DNA from: Ensifer adhaerens
Lineage (GTDB): Bacteria > Pseudomonadota > Alphaproteobacteria > Rhizobiales > Rhizobiaceae
Length of the DNA: 64,000 nt
Assembly: GCF_001270265.1 (NCBI RefSeq)
Contig: NZ_LGAP01000002.1
Span: 432,001-496,000 of the forward strand
Direction: 5' to 3'
The translations under genes were made by a program, and so were the position numbers. Below are positions 22,625 to 63,607 of the stretch, piece by piece; position 1 is the first letter of the stretch; the number at the start of each line of letters is the position of its first letter. The notes beneath the pieces are model-generated. The model had not been told where the DNA came from, made no database searches, and saw only the letters and a program-made list of their open reading frames with translations.

Positions 22625-24337
22625 ATGCCCTACAAGATGTCGCGCGCGGCCTATGCCAACATGTTCGGCCCGACGGTCGGCGACAAGGTTCGGCTCGCCG
22701 ATACGGAACTGTTCATCGAGGTGGAGAAGGACTTCACCACCTATGGCGAGGAAGTGAAATTCGGCGGCGGCAAGGTCATCCGCGACGGCATGGGCCAAAG
22801 CCAGGTGACGCGTGCGGCGGGTGCCGTCGATACGGTGATCACCAACGCGCTGATCGTCGATCACTGGGGCATCGTCAAGGCGGATATCGGGCTCAGGGAC
22901 GGGCGCATCGCGGCGATCGGCAAGGCCGGTAATCCCGACATGCAGCCTGGTGTGACGATCATCGTCGGCCCCGGCACCGAGGTGATTGCCGGCGAAGGCA
23001 AGATCGTCACCGCCGGCGGCATGGACAGCCACATCCACTTCATCTGCCCGCAGCAGATCGAGGAAGCGCTGATGAGCGGGCTCACCTGCATGCTTGGCGG
23101 TGGCACGGGTCCTGCGCATGGGACGCTCGCAACCACCTGCACGCCTGGCCCGTGGCATCTCGCCCGCATGATCGAGGCGGCGGACGCCTTCCCGATGAAC
23201 CTTGCCTTTGCCGGCAAAGGCAATGCCTCGTTGCCGGGCGCGCTGGTCGAAATGGTGCTTGCGGGCGCCACGTCGCTGAAGCTGCACGAGGACTGGGGCT
23301 CGACGCCGGCCGCCGTCGACTGCTGCCTTGGTGTCGCCGACGAATACGACGTGCAGGTGATGATCCACACCGATACGCTGAACGAGAGTGGCCTCGTCGA
23401 GGACACGATCGCGGCGATCAAGGGCCGCACGATCCATGCCTTCCACACGGAAGGGGCAGGTGGGGGGCATGCGCCCGACATCATCAAGATCTGCGGCCAG
23501 CCGAACGTCATTCCATCGTCGACCAATCCGACGAGGCCCTACACCAAGAACACGCTGGCGGAACACCTCGACATGCTGATGGTCTGCCATCACCTGTCGC
23601 CGTCGATCCCCGAGGATATCGCTTTCGCCGAAAGCCGGATCCGCAAGGAGACGATCGCCGCCGAAGACATCCTGCATGATATCGGCGCCTTCTCGATCAT
23701 TTCGTCCGACAGCCAGGCGATGGGACGCGTCGGCGAGGTGGCGATCCGCACCTGGCAGACGGCCGACAAGATGAAGCGCCAGCGCGGAGCGCTGCCGCAG
23801 GAAAGCGGCGACAACGACAATTTCCGGGTCAAGCGCTATATTGCCAAATACACGATCAACCCGGCGATCGCTCATGGCCTCAGCCATGAGATCGGTTCGC
23901 TCGAAGTCGGCAAGCGTGCCGACCTCGTCCTCTGGAACCCCGCCTTCTTCGGCGTGAAGCCCGATATGGTGCTGATCGGCGGAACGATCGCTGCAGCGCC
24001 GATGGGTGACCCCAATGCATCGATCCCGACGCCGCAGCCGGTGCATTACCGACCGATGTTCGGCGCCTATGGCAAGAGCCGGACGAATTCCTCCGTCACC
24101 TTCGTATCGCAGGCCTCGCTCGATGCGGGGCTCGCGGCGAGGCTCGGCGTCGCCAAGCAACTCGTTGCCGTCAAGAACACCCGCGGCGGCATCGGCAAGG
24201 CGTCGATGATCCACAACAACCTGACGCCGCATGTGGAGGTCGATCCGGAGACCTACGAAGTGCGAGCCGACGGCGAGCTTCTCACCTGCGAGCCGGCGAC
24301 CGTTCTGCCGATGGCGCAACGCTATTTCCTGTTCTGA
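22625..24337 (+). CDS. ureC: urease alpha subunit (catalytic)
   Basis: Catalytic alpha subunit, 570 residues, the usual length. Nickel ligands and active-site segments are seen: HIHFI, the carbamylated Lys219 in [30 protein letters not shown], and the flap CHHL motif ([12 protein letters not shown]). The start at 22625 ([17 protein letters not shown]) is standard; the frame is open further upstream but that part overlaps the preceding gene. Apparently fully active. Confidence 0.98.
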
Positions 24338-44246: not shown

Positions 44247-45920
44247 AGCCGGAGCCACTGACGGTTGCAAGGCCTTGGCGATATCTCCGGCGTCCTCGAC
44301 GATCCAGGTTTCGAGCGTCGCCTGACGCCCGCGAAGGCTGATGTCGAGCCGTTTGTGCGCCTCCATCACCACGCCGGCGCGGTTGACGAGTTCGGCCGAG
44401 ACGGCGAGCTGGGCGTCGTGCTCCTTGGCAAGCCCTTCCAGGCGGCTTGCCGTGTTGATGGTGTCGCCGACGGCGGTCAGCGATGTTGCCTGGCCGTAGC
44501 CGATCTCACCGATGATGGCGGGGCCGGCATGCATGCCGATCGCGATCCGCAGCGGCTCGTCGAGTTCGCCGTGGAAGGTCTGGTTGAGGGCATCGATGCC
44601 CTTGGAGATGCGCACGGCGGCGGCAAGCGATTGCTGGCAGGCTTCGGTAAAGGAGTTCTTCAGGCCAAAGATGGCGAGAGCACCGTCGCCGATGAACTTG
44701 TCGATGACGCCGCCCGAGTCTTCCACCGCTTCGCCGACCATCTCGAAATAGCGGTTCAGGAGGAAGACGGTGTCGAACGGCAGCTTGTGCTCGGCGATGC
44801 TGGTAAAGCCGCGCAGGTCGCAGAAGAGCACGGCGATGCGCCGTTCACGGCCTTCGCCGTCCTGGCGCACGAGTTGCTTCTTGATGCCGATGCTGTCGGT
44901 ATCGAGGATAGGAACGACGGTGACGTTGTGGATCGGGCGGAACTGGCAGGCAAGGCGGACATTGTCGGGTGCGCCGATCCGCGTCAGCGTCGTCAGCTCG
45001 GCATCTTCGGGCTCCGGTTGGCCTTCGAGGCCCTGGATCACGCGTACGCGGCAAGTGGAGCAGCGGCCGCGACCGCCGCAGACCGAGACATGCGGGATGC
45101 CGGCGGCGCGGCTTGCCTCCAGCACGCTGAAGCCGAGATTGACGGTGGCGACGCGGCCATCGGGATAACGCACGCGGATGCGGCCACCCTTGGGCAGGAC
45201 ACGCAAGGCGAAGGTGCCGGCGATCAGGCCGGCAAAGCCGAGATAAAGACCGAGCCGGATATTTTCGAGCAGGTCGACATCGTAGGGCGGCTTGGCTACC
45301 GCGCTGTCGCCATAGCCGCCGTGCTCCGCATAGACGCGCTCGAGCGAGCGGGCGCTGCTGAAGAAGCCGAGAAGCGCGAAGATCGGCACGAGGATCGCGA
45401 TCGTATAGAGCAGGATCTCGTAGCGCGGAAACCAGGTCCGTCCGCGCATCCAGAACCAGGCGCCGAGACAGCCGTGGCTCCAGGCGAGCAGGAGGGCCAG
45501 CGACTGGCGGGTGGCATTGGTCCAGCTGGACCAGAGCGCCCGCAGCATGCCGGGATAATCGGCCTCCACACCGGTCAGCAGCGGCTCGACCCGCGCGGCG
45601 GTCACGTGGCCCATCAGCAGGAAAGGCAGGCTGAGACCAAAGACGATCTTGAGCGCCTCGCGCATGGGCATGCGCAGCGTCTGGCGGCGATAGAGGCTAT
45701 CGAGCGCCATGGTGAAATGCGCCAGCAGCGCACCATAGAGCAGGATCGTGCCGGGCACGCTGTGCCAGACGGCGTTGAAGACCTCGCGGCCGGCCTCCAT
45801 CGCATCGATGGAAATCAGGCCGAGCGAATGATTGAGAAAATGGGCAAGGATGAACGTACCAAGCACGGCCCCGGAAATGAGGTGTATGCGCTTGCGTCTA
45901 TTGGCGGAAATGATCGTCAA
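44244..45920 (-). CDS. cyaC: membrane adenylate cyclase with heme-type anchor and 2Fe-2S domain (CyaC-like)
   Basis: 558-residue class III adenylate cyclase. Residues 1-240: six hydrophobic helices with His27, His31, His53, His68, His105 and His149, resembling the heme-binding anchor of succinate dehydrogenase/fumarate reductase. Residues 245-335: a ferredoxin domain with Cys281, Cys287, Cys290 and Cys325 in 2Fe-2S spacing (CGGRGRCSTC). Residues 355-550: catalytic domain with metal Asp368 and Asp412, adenine-selecting Lys408 and Asp486, and transition-state Asn489 and Arg493, all intact. S. meliloti CyaC is described as a redox-controlled cyclase with a diheme anchor; this protein appears orthologous. 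The stop codon comes from a dispersed repeat. Confidence 0.88.
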   Translation of the reverse strand: MTIISANRRKRIHLISGAVLGTFILAHFLNHSLGLISIDAMEAGREVFNAVWHSVPGTILLYGALLAHFTMALDSLYRRQTLRMPMREALKIVFGLSLPFLLMGHVTAARVEPLLTGVEADYPGMLRALWSSWTNATRQSLALLLAWSHGCLGAWFWMRGRTWFPRYEILLYTIAILVPIFALLGFFSSARSLERVYAEHGGYGDSAVAKPPYDVDLLENIRLGLYLGFAGLIAGTFALRVLPKGGRIRVRYPDGRVATVNLGFSVLEASRAAGIPHVSVCGGRGRCSTCRVRVIQGLEGQPEPEDAELTTLTRIGAPDNVRLACQFRPIHNVTVVPILDTDSIGIKKQLVRQDGEGRERRIAVLFCDLRGFTSIAEHKLPFDTVFLLNRYFEMVGEAVEDSGGVIDKFIGDGALAIFGLKNSFTEACQQSLAAAVRISKGIDALNQTFHGELDEPLRIAIGMHAGPAIIGEIGYGQATSLTAVGDTINTASRLEGLAKEHDAQLAVSAELVNRAGVVMEAHKRLDISLRGRQATLETWIVEDAGDIAKALQPSVAPA

Positions 45921-59996: not shown

Positions 59997-60017
59997 CAGG
60001 CACGGGGACCTCCATTG

Positions 60018-61601
60018 ATGCGTGAATTCGTCGTTGCGGTCGATGTCGGTACCGGCAGTGCCCGCGCCGGTATCTTCGATCGGAATGGCAGGCTGCTGGC
60101 GCGCGCCGACCTGCCGATCGCCATGAACCGGCCGGAGGAAAATCATGCCGAACACGATTCGGAAGATATCTGGAGGGCTGTCTGCGGCTCGGTGAAGGCC
60201 GCAAGAGACAAGGCCGGCATCTCACCGGAAGACGTCGCTGCCATCGGCTTCGACGCAACGTGTTCGCTCGTGGTTCGCGACCAGGACGGTGCGCAGCTTT
60301 CCGTCAACCGAAAGGGCGAGGCGCGCTGGGACACGATCGTCTGGCTCGATCATCGGGCGCTGGCGGAAGCCGATTTCTGCACCGCCACCGAACACCCGGT
60401 TCTCGACTTCTCCGGCCGCGTCATGTCGCCGGAGATGGAGATGCCGAAGCTGATGTGGCTGAAGCGGAACCTGCCGGCGCAGTGGGAGAAGGCGGGCTTT
60501 TTCTTCGATCTTGCCGACTATCTCTCCTGGCGGGCGACGGGAAGTGCGGCGCGCTCGCGCTGCACGCTGACCGCGAAATGGAATTATCTCGCTCATGAAC
60601 AGCGCGGCTGGCAGGCGGACTATCTCGCGCGCATTGGCCTTGAGGATCTGCTGACACGGGGCGGATTGCCGGAAGAAACGCTGCCGGTCGGAAGCTCGGT
60701 CGGCGGCCTGTCGGCGAAGGCTGCCGCGGAGCTCGGCCTCGATACCGGTTGCCAGGTGGCGCCGGGATTGATCGATGCCTATGCCGGCGCGCTCGGCGTG
60801 CTCGGCGGCTTTGCCGGAAAACCGGAAAAGCTCGAGCGGCAACTCGCGCTGATCGCCGGAACCTCCAGCTGCATCGTCGCCTTCTCCAAGGACATGAAGC
60901 CCGGCTTCGGTATGTGGGGGCCGTATTTCGAAGCGGTGCTGCCCGGGGCCTGGCTGATCGAGGGAGGTCAATCGGCAACCGGCGCCTTGCTCGATCACAT
61001 CGTGCGGGTCCATGGCGGCGGATTGGAGCCGACGGCCGAGACCCACGGCCGGATCATTGCACGTGTCCAGGAACTGCGCGCCCTGCACGGAGCGCAATTT
61101 GCCGAGCGGCTGCATGTGTTGCCGGATTTCCATGGCAATCGTTCGCCGCTTGCCGATCCGCATGGGCTCGGCGTCATCAGCGGTCTGCCGCTCGATTCGT
61201 CGTTCGATGCGCTGTGCCGGCTCTATTGGCGCACCTGCGTGGCGATCGCGCTCGGTATCCGCCATATCCTCGAGACGATGCGTGAGGTCGGCTACGAACT
61301 CGACACGCTTCACGTCACCGGCGGCCACGTTCGCAATGCGCTTCTGATGGAGCTTTATTGCGATGTCACGGGGTGCCGGGTCGTTGCGCCCGATGCGCCT
61401 GACGCAGTGCTGCTTGGCACGGCGATGGCGGCAGCGGTTGCCGGTCGGGTTCACCTCGATCTCGGTGCGGCCGGCGCGGCCATGGCGTCCGGCGGGCGAG
61501 AGCAGTTGCCGAACGCCGCCATGCGCGAAATCTACGACCGTGACTACCGCCGCTTCCTTGCACTTTATCGTCATCGGGACGAGCTCGACGCACTCCAATA
61601 A
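60018..61601 (+). CDS. FGGY-family pentulose kinase (ribulokinase-like)
   Basis: 527-residue sugar kinase. N-terminal phosphate loop VAVDVGTGSARAGIFD, GFDATCSLVV, and C-terminal LHVTGGHVRNALLMELY and LLGTAMAAAVA are FGGY hallmarks. The opening and length fit the D-ribulokinase/5-carbon kinase group more than true xylulokinase, though S. meliloti annotations use xylB for this position. It would phosphorylate the ketose made from a pentitol or hexitol. The start at 60018 is next to an in-frame TTG. Last gene of the polyol cluster. Confidence 0.87.
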   Translation: MREFVVAVDVGTGSARAGIFDRNGRLLARADLPIAMNRPEENHAEHDSEDIWRAVCGSVKAARDKAGISPEDVAAIGFDATCSLVVRDQDGAQLSVNRKGEARWDTIVWLDHRALAEADFCTATEHPVLDFSGRVMSPEMEMPKLMWLKRNLPAQWEKAGFFFDLADYLSWRATGSAARSRCTLTAKWNYLAHEQRGWQADYLARIGLEDLLTRGGLPEETLPVGSSVGGLSAKAAAELGLDTGCQVAPGLIDAYAGALGVLGGFAGKPEKLERQLALIAGTSSCIVAFSKDMKPGFGMWGPYFEAVLPGAWLIEGGQSATGALLDHIVRVHGGGLEPTAETHGRIIARVQELRALHGAQFAERLHVLPDFHGNRSPLADPHGLGVISGLPLDSSFDALCRLYWRTCVAIALGIRHILETMREVGYELDTLHVTGGHVRNALLMELYCDVTGCRVVAPDAPDAVLLGTAMAAAVAGRVHLDLGAAGAAMASGGREQLPNAAMREIYDRDYRRFLALYRHRDELDALQ

Positions 61602-61627: not shown

Positions 61628-61652
61628 GGAACCTTTGCCTGCGTCACGCATT
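61628..61652 (+). promoter_or_regulatory. EcfG/RpoE2-like promoter ahead of candidate sRNA
   Basis: GGAAC (61628-61632), 16-base spacer, CATT (61649-61652); the consensus is GGAAC-N16/17-CGTT, so one mismatch in the -10. Predicted start near 61658-61660, at the first base of a structured non-coding stretch. Confidence 0.5.
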
Positions 61653-61657
61653 TTATT

Positions 61658-61789
61658 GAAGACCGGACGGTGGCGCGCATCGCCCCCAATGTGGCGCCGG
61701 AGGTAATCCGCCGGTCTGCAACTCACACTCCCCCTGTGAGTTGAACAATGTCAGCCAGTGCCTTCCCTCGGCACTGGCTGTTTTTGTTT
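61658..61789 (+). ncRNA. candidate trans-acting small RNA with three hairpins
   Basis: In the 318-base gap between the kinase and phyR. Stem 1: GACCGG (61661-61666) / CCGGTC (61711-61716) with internal GGCGC / GCGCC. Stem 2: perfect 9-bp CAACTCACA (61719-61727) / TGTGAGTTG (61735-61743) presenting a C-rich loop CTCCCCC. Stem 3: CAGCCAGTGCC / GGCACTGGCTG (61752-61780) followed by TTTTTGTTT, a strong intrinsic terminator. No open frame. An EcfG-like promoter sits at the right distance upstream. The layout (structured 5' end, exposed C-rich loop, terminator) is that of a regulatory sRNA. It could instead be only the 3' UTR and terminator of the kinase transcript. Confidence 0.6.
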
Positions 61790-61868: not shown

Positions 61869-61899
61869 CAAACGAAAGCCGGCGACCGAAGCCACCGGC
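61869..61899 (-). terminator. intrinsic terminator of phyR
   Basis: On the minus strand: GCCGGTGGC / GTCGCCGGC stem (two G-T wobbles) with a TTCG tetraloop, followed by TTTCGTTTG. It starts 21 bases after the phyR stop. Confidence 0.8.
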
Positions 61900-61919: not shown

Positions 61920-62714
61920 TCAGGCTGCGGCCTTCGTCGACTCGTTGAAGAACAGTGCCTGGCTGATCAGCGCCTTGACCATGTCAGGGTTGAAGGGCTT
62001 GGTGACCAGGAAGGTCGGCTCAGGACGTTCGCCGGTCAGCAACCTCTCGGGGAATGCGGTGATGAAGATCACCGGGATGGCGCTGGTCTTCAGAATGTCG
62101 TTGACCGCGTCGATGCCGGAGCTGCCGTCGGCAAGCTGGATATCTGCAAGCACCATGCTCGGCCGGGTCTTCTTGTAGAGGGCGATCGCCTCATCGCGGG
62201 TGCGGGCGATGCCTGTCACCCGATGGCCGAGGCTCTCGACCATGTTTTCGATATCGATGGCAATCAGCGGTTCGTCCTCGATGATCATGATATCGGTTGC
62301 GACCTGTCGCGAGATTTCCTGCGAGGCGCGGTCGAGAAGGGCGCCGACCTTGTCGTCGCTGACGTCAAGGATTTCGCTGGCTTCCTCGGGCCGGAAACCT
62401 TCGACCGAGACGAGAAGGAAAGCTTGGCGGGCAAGCGGAGACACGCTTGCCAGGTTGACCGAGGCGCGCTGCTCCCAGGCAAAGGGCGAAACTGGTTCGG
62501 GAACCAGCACTGAAGAGGAGCCGAAGAGCGACGTATAGAGGCGGAACAGCGAGACTCGGTCATTGCTGGCCTCCGGGAAAATGGAGGTGTCGGCAATCAG
62601 GGCCTCAAGTACGGCGGCCACATAGGCGTCGCCGGATGTCTGCGAGCCAGTCAATGCGCGCGAGTAGCGGCGCAGATAAGGCAGCAGCGGCGCGATCCGT
62701 GTGGACAATGTCAT
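61920..62714 (-). CDS. phyR: PhyR general-stress response regulator (anti-anti-sigma factor)
   Basis: 264-residue PhyR. The N-terminal ECF-sigma-like domain (about 1-140; VSPLARQAFLLVSVEGFRPEEASEIL mimics sigma region 4) binds the anti-sigma NepR when the C-terminal receiver domain is phosphorylated. Receiver features: acidic pair Glu146/Asp147, phospho-acceptor Asp191 in MVLADIQLAD, and Lys in VTKPF. The start at 62714 follows GGGAG (GAACTCCC in the plus strand). Divergent from nepR-ecfG. An EcfG-type promoter lies 43 bases upstream. Confidence 0.95.
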   Translation of the reverse strand: MTLSTRIAPLLPYLRRYSRALTGSQTSGDAYVAAVLEALIADTSIFPEASNDRVSLFRLYTSLFGSSSVLVPEPVSPFAWEQRASVNLASVSPLARQAFLLVSVEGFRPEEASEILDVSDDKVGALLDRASQEISRQVATDIMIIEDEPLIAIDIENMVESLGHRVTGIARTRDEAIALYKKTRPSMVLADIQLADGSSGIDAVNDILKTSAIPVIFITAFPERLLTGERPEPTFLVTKPFNPDMVKALISQALFFNESTKAAA

Positions 62715-62756
62715 TGGGAACTCCCTCGAGTATATTTCTTGCAGTGACGCCCCCAA

Positions 62757-62781
62757 AACGTTTCACGCAAAAAAAAGTTCC
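62757..62781 (-). promoter_or_regulatory. EcfG/RpoE2-type promoter of phyR
   Basis: Minus strand GGAAC (62781-62777), 16-base spacer, CGTT (62760-62757), an exact match to the alphaproteobacterial EcfG consensus. Implies positive feedback on phyR. Confidence 0.85.
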
Positions 62782-62786
62782 GGGAG

Positions 62787-62812
62787 GGAACATTTCATTT
62801 TTCAGACGCGTT
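62787..62812 (+). promoter_or_regulatory. EcfG/RpoE2-type promoter of nepR-ecfG
   Basis: GGAAC (62787-62791), 17-base spacer, CGTT (62809-62812), exact consensus, 38 bases upstream of the nepR ATG. Back-to-back with the phyR promoter, only five bases between the two -35 elements. Confidence 0.85.
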
Positions 62813-62849
62813 AAGGCGGTAATGAACACCACAAGGCGACAGATTGACA

Positions 62850-63044
62850 ATGAAATATAAAACAGGGGCGGGGCGCACTTCCGGTACGACCTCATGGACC
62901 GAAGACCCGAACGCGCAGATCGCGGCCAAGCTGAAGGCGCTCTACCAGTCCGTCCAGGAAGAAGCGATCCCCTCACGTTTTCTCGATCTTCTGGAGAAAC
63001 TCGACGCAGCCGAGCAGCAGGCGGTTCTGCAGGGTAGGGAGTGA
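62850..63044 (+). CDS. nepR: NepR anti-sigma factor
   Basis: 64-residue anti-sigma factor that sequesters EcfG until phosphorylated PhyR displaces it. The core QIAAKLKALYQSVQEEAIPSRFLDLLEKLD contains the two helices typical of NepR. The ATG at 62850 is used here; a TTG at 62844 is nearer to the AAGGCG site and would add two residues. The stop overlaps the ecfG GTG start (63041-63044). Orthologue of S. meliloti RsiA1. Confidence 0.92.
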   Translation: MKYKTGAGRTSGTTSWTEDPNAQIAAKLKALYQSVQEEAIPSRFLDLLEKLDAAEQQAVLQGRE

Positions 63045-63607
63045 ACGCCGGAATGTCGTCGGAAAAGAATGATTTCAAGCGAGAGATGCTCGCCGCTCTG
63101 CCGAGCCTTCGCGCCTTTGCCATGTCCCTCATCGGTCGCCATGACCGGGCCGACGATCTTGTCCAGGACACGATCATGAAAGCCTGGGCCAAGCAGGACC
63201 ATTTCCAGATGGGCACCAACATGAAGGCTTGGCTGTTCACGATCCTGCGCAACGAGCTTTACAGCCAGATGCGCAAGCGCGGACGGGAGGTACAGGACAG
63301 CGACGGCCATTTCACCGAATCGCTTGCCCACCATCCGGAGCAATATGGTTCGCTCGATCTGCAGGATTTTCGGCGGGCGCTGGAGATGCTGCCGCCGGAT
63401 CAGCGCGAGGCGATCATTCTCGTCGGTGCGTCGGGCTTTTCCTATGAGGAGGCGGCGACGATCTGCGGCTGCGCCCTCGGTACGATCAAGAGCCGCGTGA
63501 ACCGTGCCCGCCAGCGCCTTCAGGATATCCTCCAGGTGCAGGGCGAGAACGACTACGGTCCGGACGAGACGTCCGCCCCCATTACGTCACGGGCATTCGT
63601 TTCCTGA
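63041..63607 (+). CDS. rpoE2: ECF sigma factor EcfG/RpoE2, general stress response
   Basis: 188-residue ECF sigma factor. Region 2: RHDRADDLVQDTIMKAW and MKAWLFTILRNELYSQMRK at about 30-75; region 4: LPPDQREAIILVGASGFSYEEAATICGCALGTIKSRVNRARQRL at about 115-160. No region 3, as expected. The GTG start overlaps the nepR stop (GTGA); an ATG at 63053 would shorten it by four residues. Directs GGAAC-N16/17-CGTT promoters such as the two found upstream. Confidence 0.94.
   Translation: MNAGMSSEKNDFKREMLAALPSLRAFAMSLIGRHDRADDLVQDTIMKAWAKQDHFQMGTNMKAWLFTILRNELYSQMRKRGREVQDSDGHFTESLAHHPEQYGSLDLQDFRRALEMLPPDQREAIILVGASGFSYEEAATICGCALGTIKSRVNRARQRLQDILQVQGENDYGPDETSAPITSRAFVS

Follow-up and report, generated by a model that had tools for sequence, protein, structure and literature searches.

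A three-hairpin small RNA gene with an EcfG-type promoter beside phyR in Ensifer adhaerens, probably orthologous to ReC64 of Rhizobium etli

Does the short stretch of DNA between a carbohydrate kinase gene and phyR in Ensifer adhaerens encode a small RNA of its own, and does that RNA belong to the general stress response? The alphaproteobacterial general stress response aids the stress survival of rhizobia, and outside Caulobacter its RNA arm is described through predictions and expression data. We addressed the question in a window, meaning the whole analysed stretch of 64,000 nucleotides whose positions are used below, and in related genomes. The element is a real three-hairpin small RNA (sRNA) gene with an EcfG-type promoter and an intrinsic terminator. 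We place a probability of roughly 0.75 on the reading that this sRNA is a single-copy, trans-encoded counterpart of ReC64 in the general stress response whose C-rich loops act on mRNAs.

The upstream neighbor of the sRNA gene, on the same strand, encodes an FGGY-family carbohydrate kinase (60015–61601, plus strand). Convergent to the sRNA gene is phyR (61920–62714, minus strand, ATG at 62714), in which a Pfam scan covering 61920–62711 found the domains PhyR_sigma2, PhyR_sigma-like, and Response_reg; a terminator-like hairpin (61878–61899, minus strand) is a candidate end of the phyR transcript ahead of the sRNA gene. Transcribed away from phyR are nepR, encoding the anti-sigma factor (62844–63044, plus strand; NepR domain), and ecfG, encoding the sigma factor (63041–63607, plus strand; Sigma70_r2 and Sigma70_r4_2), the start codons of both being uncertain. 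EcfG-type promoters belong to phyR (GGAAC-N16-CGTT, 62757–62781, minus strand) and to nepR-ecfG (GGAAC-N17-CGTT, 62787–62812, plus strand). Compared with Ensifer sp. LC163, the nearest named relative, the kinase is 97%, PhyR 98%, and EcfG 99% identical. Elsewhere in the window there is a further GGAAC-N16-CATT site at 44939 (plus strand), and the Rfam family 5_ureB_sRNA matches 22777–23066 (minus strand) at 121 bits, above its gathering score, possibly reflecting just conserved ureB coding sequence.

The EcfG-type promoter of the sRNA gene (61628–61652, plus strand) consists of GGAAC at 61628–61632 and CATT at 61649–61652, separated by 16 nt, and lies ahead of the first hairpin as a preliminary description of this DNA had proposed. 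The gene itself, of about 127 nt, is predicted to span 61658–61785 on the plus strand, with the 5' end placed 6–8 nt past the -10 element and the 3' end at the T-run. Hairpin 1 (61660–61717, plus strand) carries the apical loop CGCCCCCA at 61681–61688, and hairpin 2 (61719–61743, plus strand) has 9 bp and the loop CUCCCCC at 61728–61734. Hairpin 3 (11 bp, 61752–61780), with the loop UUCCCUC at 61763–61769, forms an intrinsic terminator together with the T-run (61752–61785, plus strand); its identification as a terminator with a U-run had been made beforehand and holds, this hairpin being the longest among 11 terminator-like sites between 59 and 64 kb (mean of 4.5 in shuffles). The minimum free energy of 61656–61789 is -66.2 kcal/mol, compared with -43.0 (sd 3.9) in dinucleotide shuffles (z of -6.02), and 0 of 200 shuffles fold as well; in eight relatives z ranges from -3.7 to -7.7. 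Two details of the preliminary description need amendment: the three hairpins stand, but they are not all perfect or near-perfect, since hairpin 1 has one bulge and an 8-nt internal strand, and the C-rich middle loop on its 9-bp stem is real but not alone, as all three loops are C-rich. No Rfam 15 family matched the sRNA at its gathering score, and we dismissed matches of mir-6827 and Scr3202 below the threshold as chance.

The RNA is shared with many relatives. A BLAST search with a 199-base query found matches at E <= 0.01 in 24 of 101 genomes, including all 15 other genomes of the same genus; alignments to 14 of these 15 begin at query base 25–27, which corresponds to the promoter, and all 199 bases are covered in one. 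We also scanned a collection of named genomes with a pattern that prescribed GCCCCCAA and both arms of hairpin 2; neither the promoter nor the helices of the other two hairpins formed part of it. The scan returned 48 loci, 39 of which are titled Ensifer, Sinorhizobium, Rhizobium, or Xaviernesmea. PhyR is present in 42 of the 48, and in the remaining six the fetched stretch ends less than 1 kb away on the PhyR side.

A family model, R2, was built from 32 sequences that include the window and genomes of the R. etli genus, strain CFN42 being left out. In searches that score 8 to 23 candidates per genome (9 in the class-wide draw), which diverged copies may escape, R2 found matches at E <= 0.001 in 67 of 394 genomes from the family of Ensifer, presumably Rhizobiaceae (one match, in G156, is weak at 30.7 bits), in 8 of 397 genomes in an order-wide draw, all from that same family, and in 3 of 387 in a class-wide draw, two from the family and one weak (G1156, 31 bits). 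The matches within the family fall in 14 of 106 genera, and most of its genera therefore gave none. The search for the three-stem structure in relatives that the preliminary description had suggested thus shows conservation within the family, whereas at order and class level nothing beyond it appeared save one weak match. All 148 R. etli-genus genomes gave one match each, so that the gene is single copy at the threshold used. An earlier model, R1, had matches in 88 of the 394 family genomes at E <= 0.01, many of which were second, weaker matches of about 85 nt. Those at L139–L141, L143–L146, L148, L150, L153, and L154 were dropped as a common coding-like stretch, by eye a membrane transporter, as were L151, which resembles the terminator alone, and L152. 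The coding-like DNA of L139–L141 and L143–L146 resembles the terminator hairpin.

Taken alone, the promoter motif is near chance, the strict form GGAAC-N16-CGTT having 90 matches in the genome of the window against 74 for a reversed control. The motif gains weight because an EcfG-type promoter occupies the same position in all 74 RNAs that we examined, with N16 in 73 and N17 in one, as scored with a script that tolerated spacings of 15–17 and N[GA]TT. These 74 comprise the pattern loci other than L070, which is cut by the locus edge (47 of 48), the window, and 26 model matches; the -10 element reads CGTT in 37, CATT in 22, TGTT in 14, and AATT in one. Such constancy speaks against the possibility that the element is simply where the carbohydrate kinase operon ends, as its 3' untranslated region and terminator, and gives rise to no separate RNA, an arrangement that the window itself would permit, given that the RNA lies on the same strand 57 nt past the kinase stop and that the plus strand has no terminator-like site from 61601 to hairpin 3. 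Against this possibility there is also the absence of the FGGY kinase within about 2 kb of the RNA in each of 12 loci from the R. etli genus, all of which keep the RNA, and the start of ReC64 mapped by 5' RACE at an EcfG motif (PMC3892343). In L116 and CFN42 a different gene, pointing away from the RNA, takes the place of the kinase, and the RNA and its promoter are kept. We consider an origin as a kinase 3' end very improbable.

Gene content flanking the RNA varies by clade. In L116, L233, and further R. etli-genus loci, an HWE histidine kinase gene stands between the RNA and phyR, and a dehydrogenase-like gene replaces that of the sugar kinase. In L127–L138 PhyR identity is just 54–57%, yet the promoter and hairpins of the RNA are kept; the terminator loop lacks CCC in 9 of these 12.

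Compensatory changes, the absence of which from related genomes had been named beforehand as evidence against the RNA, are present in hairpins 1 and 3. Among 40 distinct sequences (alignment A2, without L070 and without 8 identical sequences), 7 of 28 pairs showed changes in both partners, compared with a mean of 2.0 in 500 shuffles, none of which reached as many. Standard pairs make up 98.2% of the cells in the 28-pair structure and 25–35% when the partner is slid by 1 to 3 columns; in slid structures such two-sided changes still occurred in as many as 5 pairs and 13 cells, compared with 7 pairs and 26 cells in the actual structure, where one pair accounts for 15 of the 26 cells. Hairpin 2 is constant in this alignment because the search pattern fixed it, and in the model matches it varies with pairing retained. 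When folded individually, 62 of 65 distinct RNAs form three hairpins and the other 3 form four.

These paired changes also bear on whether the transcript encodes a small stress peptide. The preliminary description had seen no open frame, which does not hold strictly: short GTG, TTG, and ATG frames exist in the RNA, and a GTG frame recurs at the same place in five of 10 printed loci (window, L037, L074, L052, and L083). This frame is missing from the other five, four of which have only other frames and one of which has none of at least 10 codons; together with the paired changes in the stems, its patchy occurrence makes a peptide product extremely unlikely.

CCC occurs in three loops in 53 of the 65 distinct RNAs, in two loops in 11, and in one loop in one; it is missing from the terminator loop in 9, from loop 1 in three, and from loop 2 in one. 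The preliminary description had suggested looking for G-rich target sites near ribosome-binding sites, and our tests on the leaders of phyR and katG lent no clear support. One candidate arose in the window itself, where UUGGGGGCG in the 5' region of the phyR mRNA (62748–62756, minus strand), near the expected mRNA start, is a perfect 9-nt complement to the loop and edge of hairpin 1. This match could suggest that the RNA regulates phyR itself, as an antisense RNA or by pairing with the phyR leader. The 9-nt site is found in only 1 of 62 phyR leaders, that of the window, with a shorter UUGGGG in one more (L076), and we rejected the phyR 5' end as a target on this restriction. We compared loop pairing among 62 phyR, 56 nepR, and 52 kinase leaders drawn from the 74 RNAs. 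The matched means were -11.1 kcal/mol for phyR leaders, -10.6 for the kinase control, and -7.4 for the nepR control, and the RNA of a leader's own clade scored best for phyR leaders in 1 of 6 clades. Specific loop pairing to phyR leaders near the start codon was accordingly rejected: phyR leaders outscore nepR leaders, but they are about equal to the kinase control, and matched pairs show no advantage. As a terminator-like site also separates phyR from the RNA gene, we regard phyR as a most unlikely object of regulation.

A broader action is harder to set aside. The RNA might block Shine-Dalgarno sequences at large, in the manner of SmelA075/SmelA099 and RS0680a, rather than act on chosen mRNAs as GsrN does. 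Several hairpins with C-rich loops would suit such a role, as would the CCUCC that the R. etli copy carries in hairpin 2 and the similar loop scores on phyR and kinase leaders, and the anti-SD loops of SmelA075/A099 and RS0680a have been tied to stress adaptation (PMC3927594). The window RNA (61658–61785), by contrast, contains no CCUCC, the anti-SD motif, and nepR leaders score clearly weaker (-7.4), and loop pairing is therefore unequal among leaders. We judge general Shine-Dalgarno blocking to be unlikely, though it deserves to be kept in mind.

The reading that we favor, a ReC64 counterpart acting on mRNAs, draws on what is known of R. etli. In the genome that we assign to CFN42, based on three contigs that are 100% identical over their first 1000 bases to the plasmid records NC_004041.2, NC_007766.1, and NC_007764.1, R2 found one copy (93.7 bits, E of 3.3e-21). 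This copy lies beyond the HWE histidine kinase gene that follows phyR and adjoins a dehydrogenase-like gene that points away from it. An EcfG-type promoter precedes this copy, which also has three hairpins and C-rich loops, with CCUCC in hairpin 2. ReC64 was described downstream of phyR-tcrY with a RACE 5' end that fits the EcfG1 motif; its expression was lost in ecfG1 mutants, and both EcfG1 and EcfG2 activated it in Escherichia coli (Jans et al. 2013, PMC3892343). EcfG stress control is thus established in a relative. ReC64 rose in salt shock and is not among the heat-raised RNAs reported by Lopez-Leal et al. (2014, PMC4167512), whose predicted SigA and RpoH promoters for ReC64 count against the EcfG reading. 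With the CFN42 copy taken to be ReC64 from its place and promoter, the window sRNA is very probably the ReC64 orthologue, which supports the earlier proposal of a stress-sigma-controlled sRNA beside phyR, nepR, and ecfG. Since an R. etli counterpart was already published, the window sRNA adds a strain to a known kind; what is new here is how far the family extends, its structure and covariation, and an account that may explain the 88-nt product in print.

We propose that stress would free EcfG through PhyR and NepR, and that EcfG would then transcribe the sRNA from 61628–61652, as was demonstrated for ReC64 in R. etli. The RNA of about 127 nt is predicted to fold into the three hairpins, the last serving as terminator, and its C-rich loops, chiefly those of hairpins 1 and 2, would most likely pair with G-rich sites near mRNA 5' ends or ribosome-binding sites, which may alter the translation or stability of these mRNAs. 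Our literature search, covering main texts, found no publication naming a ReC64 target. In a more speculative extension, which we hold tentatively and consider doubtful as a whole, the family would be the post-transcriptional arm of the general stress response across many genera of the rhizobial family and would have arisen apart from GsrN; the RNA of about 127 nt would be cleaved ahead of the terminator, leaving a stable RNA of 88 nt and two hairpins, and two different C-rich loops would act on different sets of stress mRNAs.

Compared with ReC64, the likeness lies in the R2 copy at the published ReC64 place in CFN42, with its EcfG-type promoter, three hairpins, and C-rich loops. The two loci differ in that CFN42 has an HWE histidine kinase gene separating the RNA from phyR, and a dehydrogenase-like gene in the position of the sugar kinase gene, and the RNAs differ in length, 88 nt being reported for ReC64 (Jans et al. 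2013, PMC3892343) versus about 127 nt predicted for the window RNA. In CFN42, 88 nt counted from the presumed start end at the 3' foot of hairpin 2, ahead of the terminator hairpin, and we infer that the 88-nt product consists of hairpins 1 and 2 without the terminator. The larger transcript that appeared beside ReC64 on a Northern blot and was left unexplained where it was reported (Vercruysse et al. 2010, PMC2881028) could therefore be the full RNA of about 125 nt.

A second counterpart is suggested in Sinorhizobium meliloti. The family copy in strain 4H41 is located about 290 kb past RNase P and about 46 kb past the segment of a trpE-like gene that encodes chorismate binding; RcsR1 is the trpE leader. 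SmelC601 (SMc06778) is a 127-nt RNA encoded on the minus strand, with a predicted RpoE2 promoter, and its coordinates put it 268 kb past RNase P and 49 kb past RcsR1 (reviewed in PMC7143759). It shares its strand with the 4H41 copy at similar distances, and SmelC601 is therefore, judging by the map, probably the S. meliloti member of the family. Reinkensmeier et al. (2011, PMC3927594) gave R. etli relatives to ten S. meliloti RNAs, a group in which SmelC601 is not included; SmelC601 and the R. etli family members are far apart in sequence.

GsrN of Caulobacter crescentus pairs with katG mRNA through a C-rich loop (Tien et al. 2018, PMC5869019), and the window RNA resembles it in its probable control by an EcfG-type sigma factor and in exposing a C-rich loop in its 5' hairpin. 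This family differs from GsrN in mostly having three C-rich loops and in that katG leaders of the window's genus give no clear fit. Of 17 such leaders, one contains a run of four G, far upstream, and that of the window's strain contains none; GGGAG occurs at the katG ribosome-binding site in 9 of the 17, where loop 2 could pair over 5 nt. We found no clear support for katG as a target in these leaders. GsrN-like pairing via C-rich loops is plausible by analogy, and the analogy is fair but already in print: GsrN-like RNAs were predicted in R. etli, S. meliloti, Brucella, Agrobacterium, and others based on expression, EcfG site, and location, whereas the BLASTn matches reported for GsrN were confined to Caulobacteraceae (Tien et al. 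2018, PMC5869019). As these authors cite Jans et al., their R. etli counterpart is presumably ReC64.

SmelA075/SmelA099 and RS0680a of Rhodobacter, described as multi-hairpin RNAs with anti-SD loops and a role in stress adaptation (PMC3927594), resemble the family in their several hairpins, C-rich loops, and stress link. They differ from it in being multicopy RNAs with an anti-SD loop motif, the family being single copy in 148 of 148 genomes and the window RNA lacking CCUCC. Defined by its structure, promoter, and limits, the family brings together ReC64, probably SmelC601, and presumably the GsrN counterparts predicted for rhizobia as a single object open to testing, and it supplies both a gene to delete in model strains and a reason for the larger ReC64 band.
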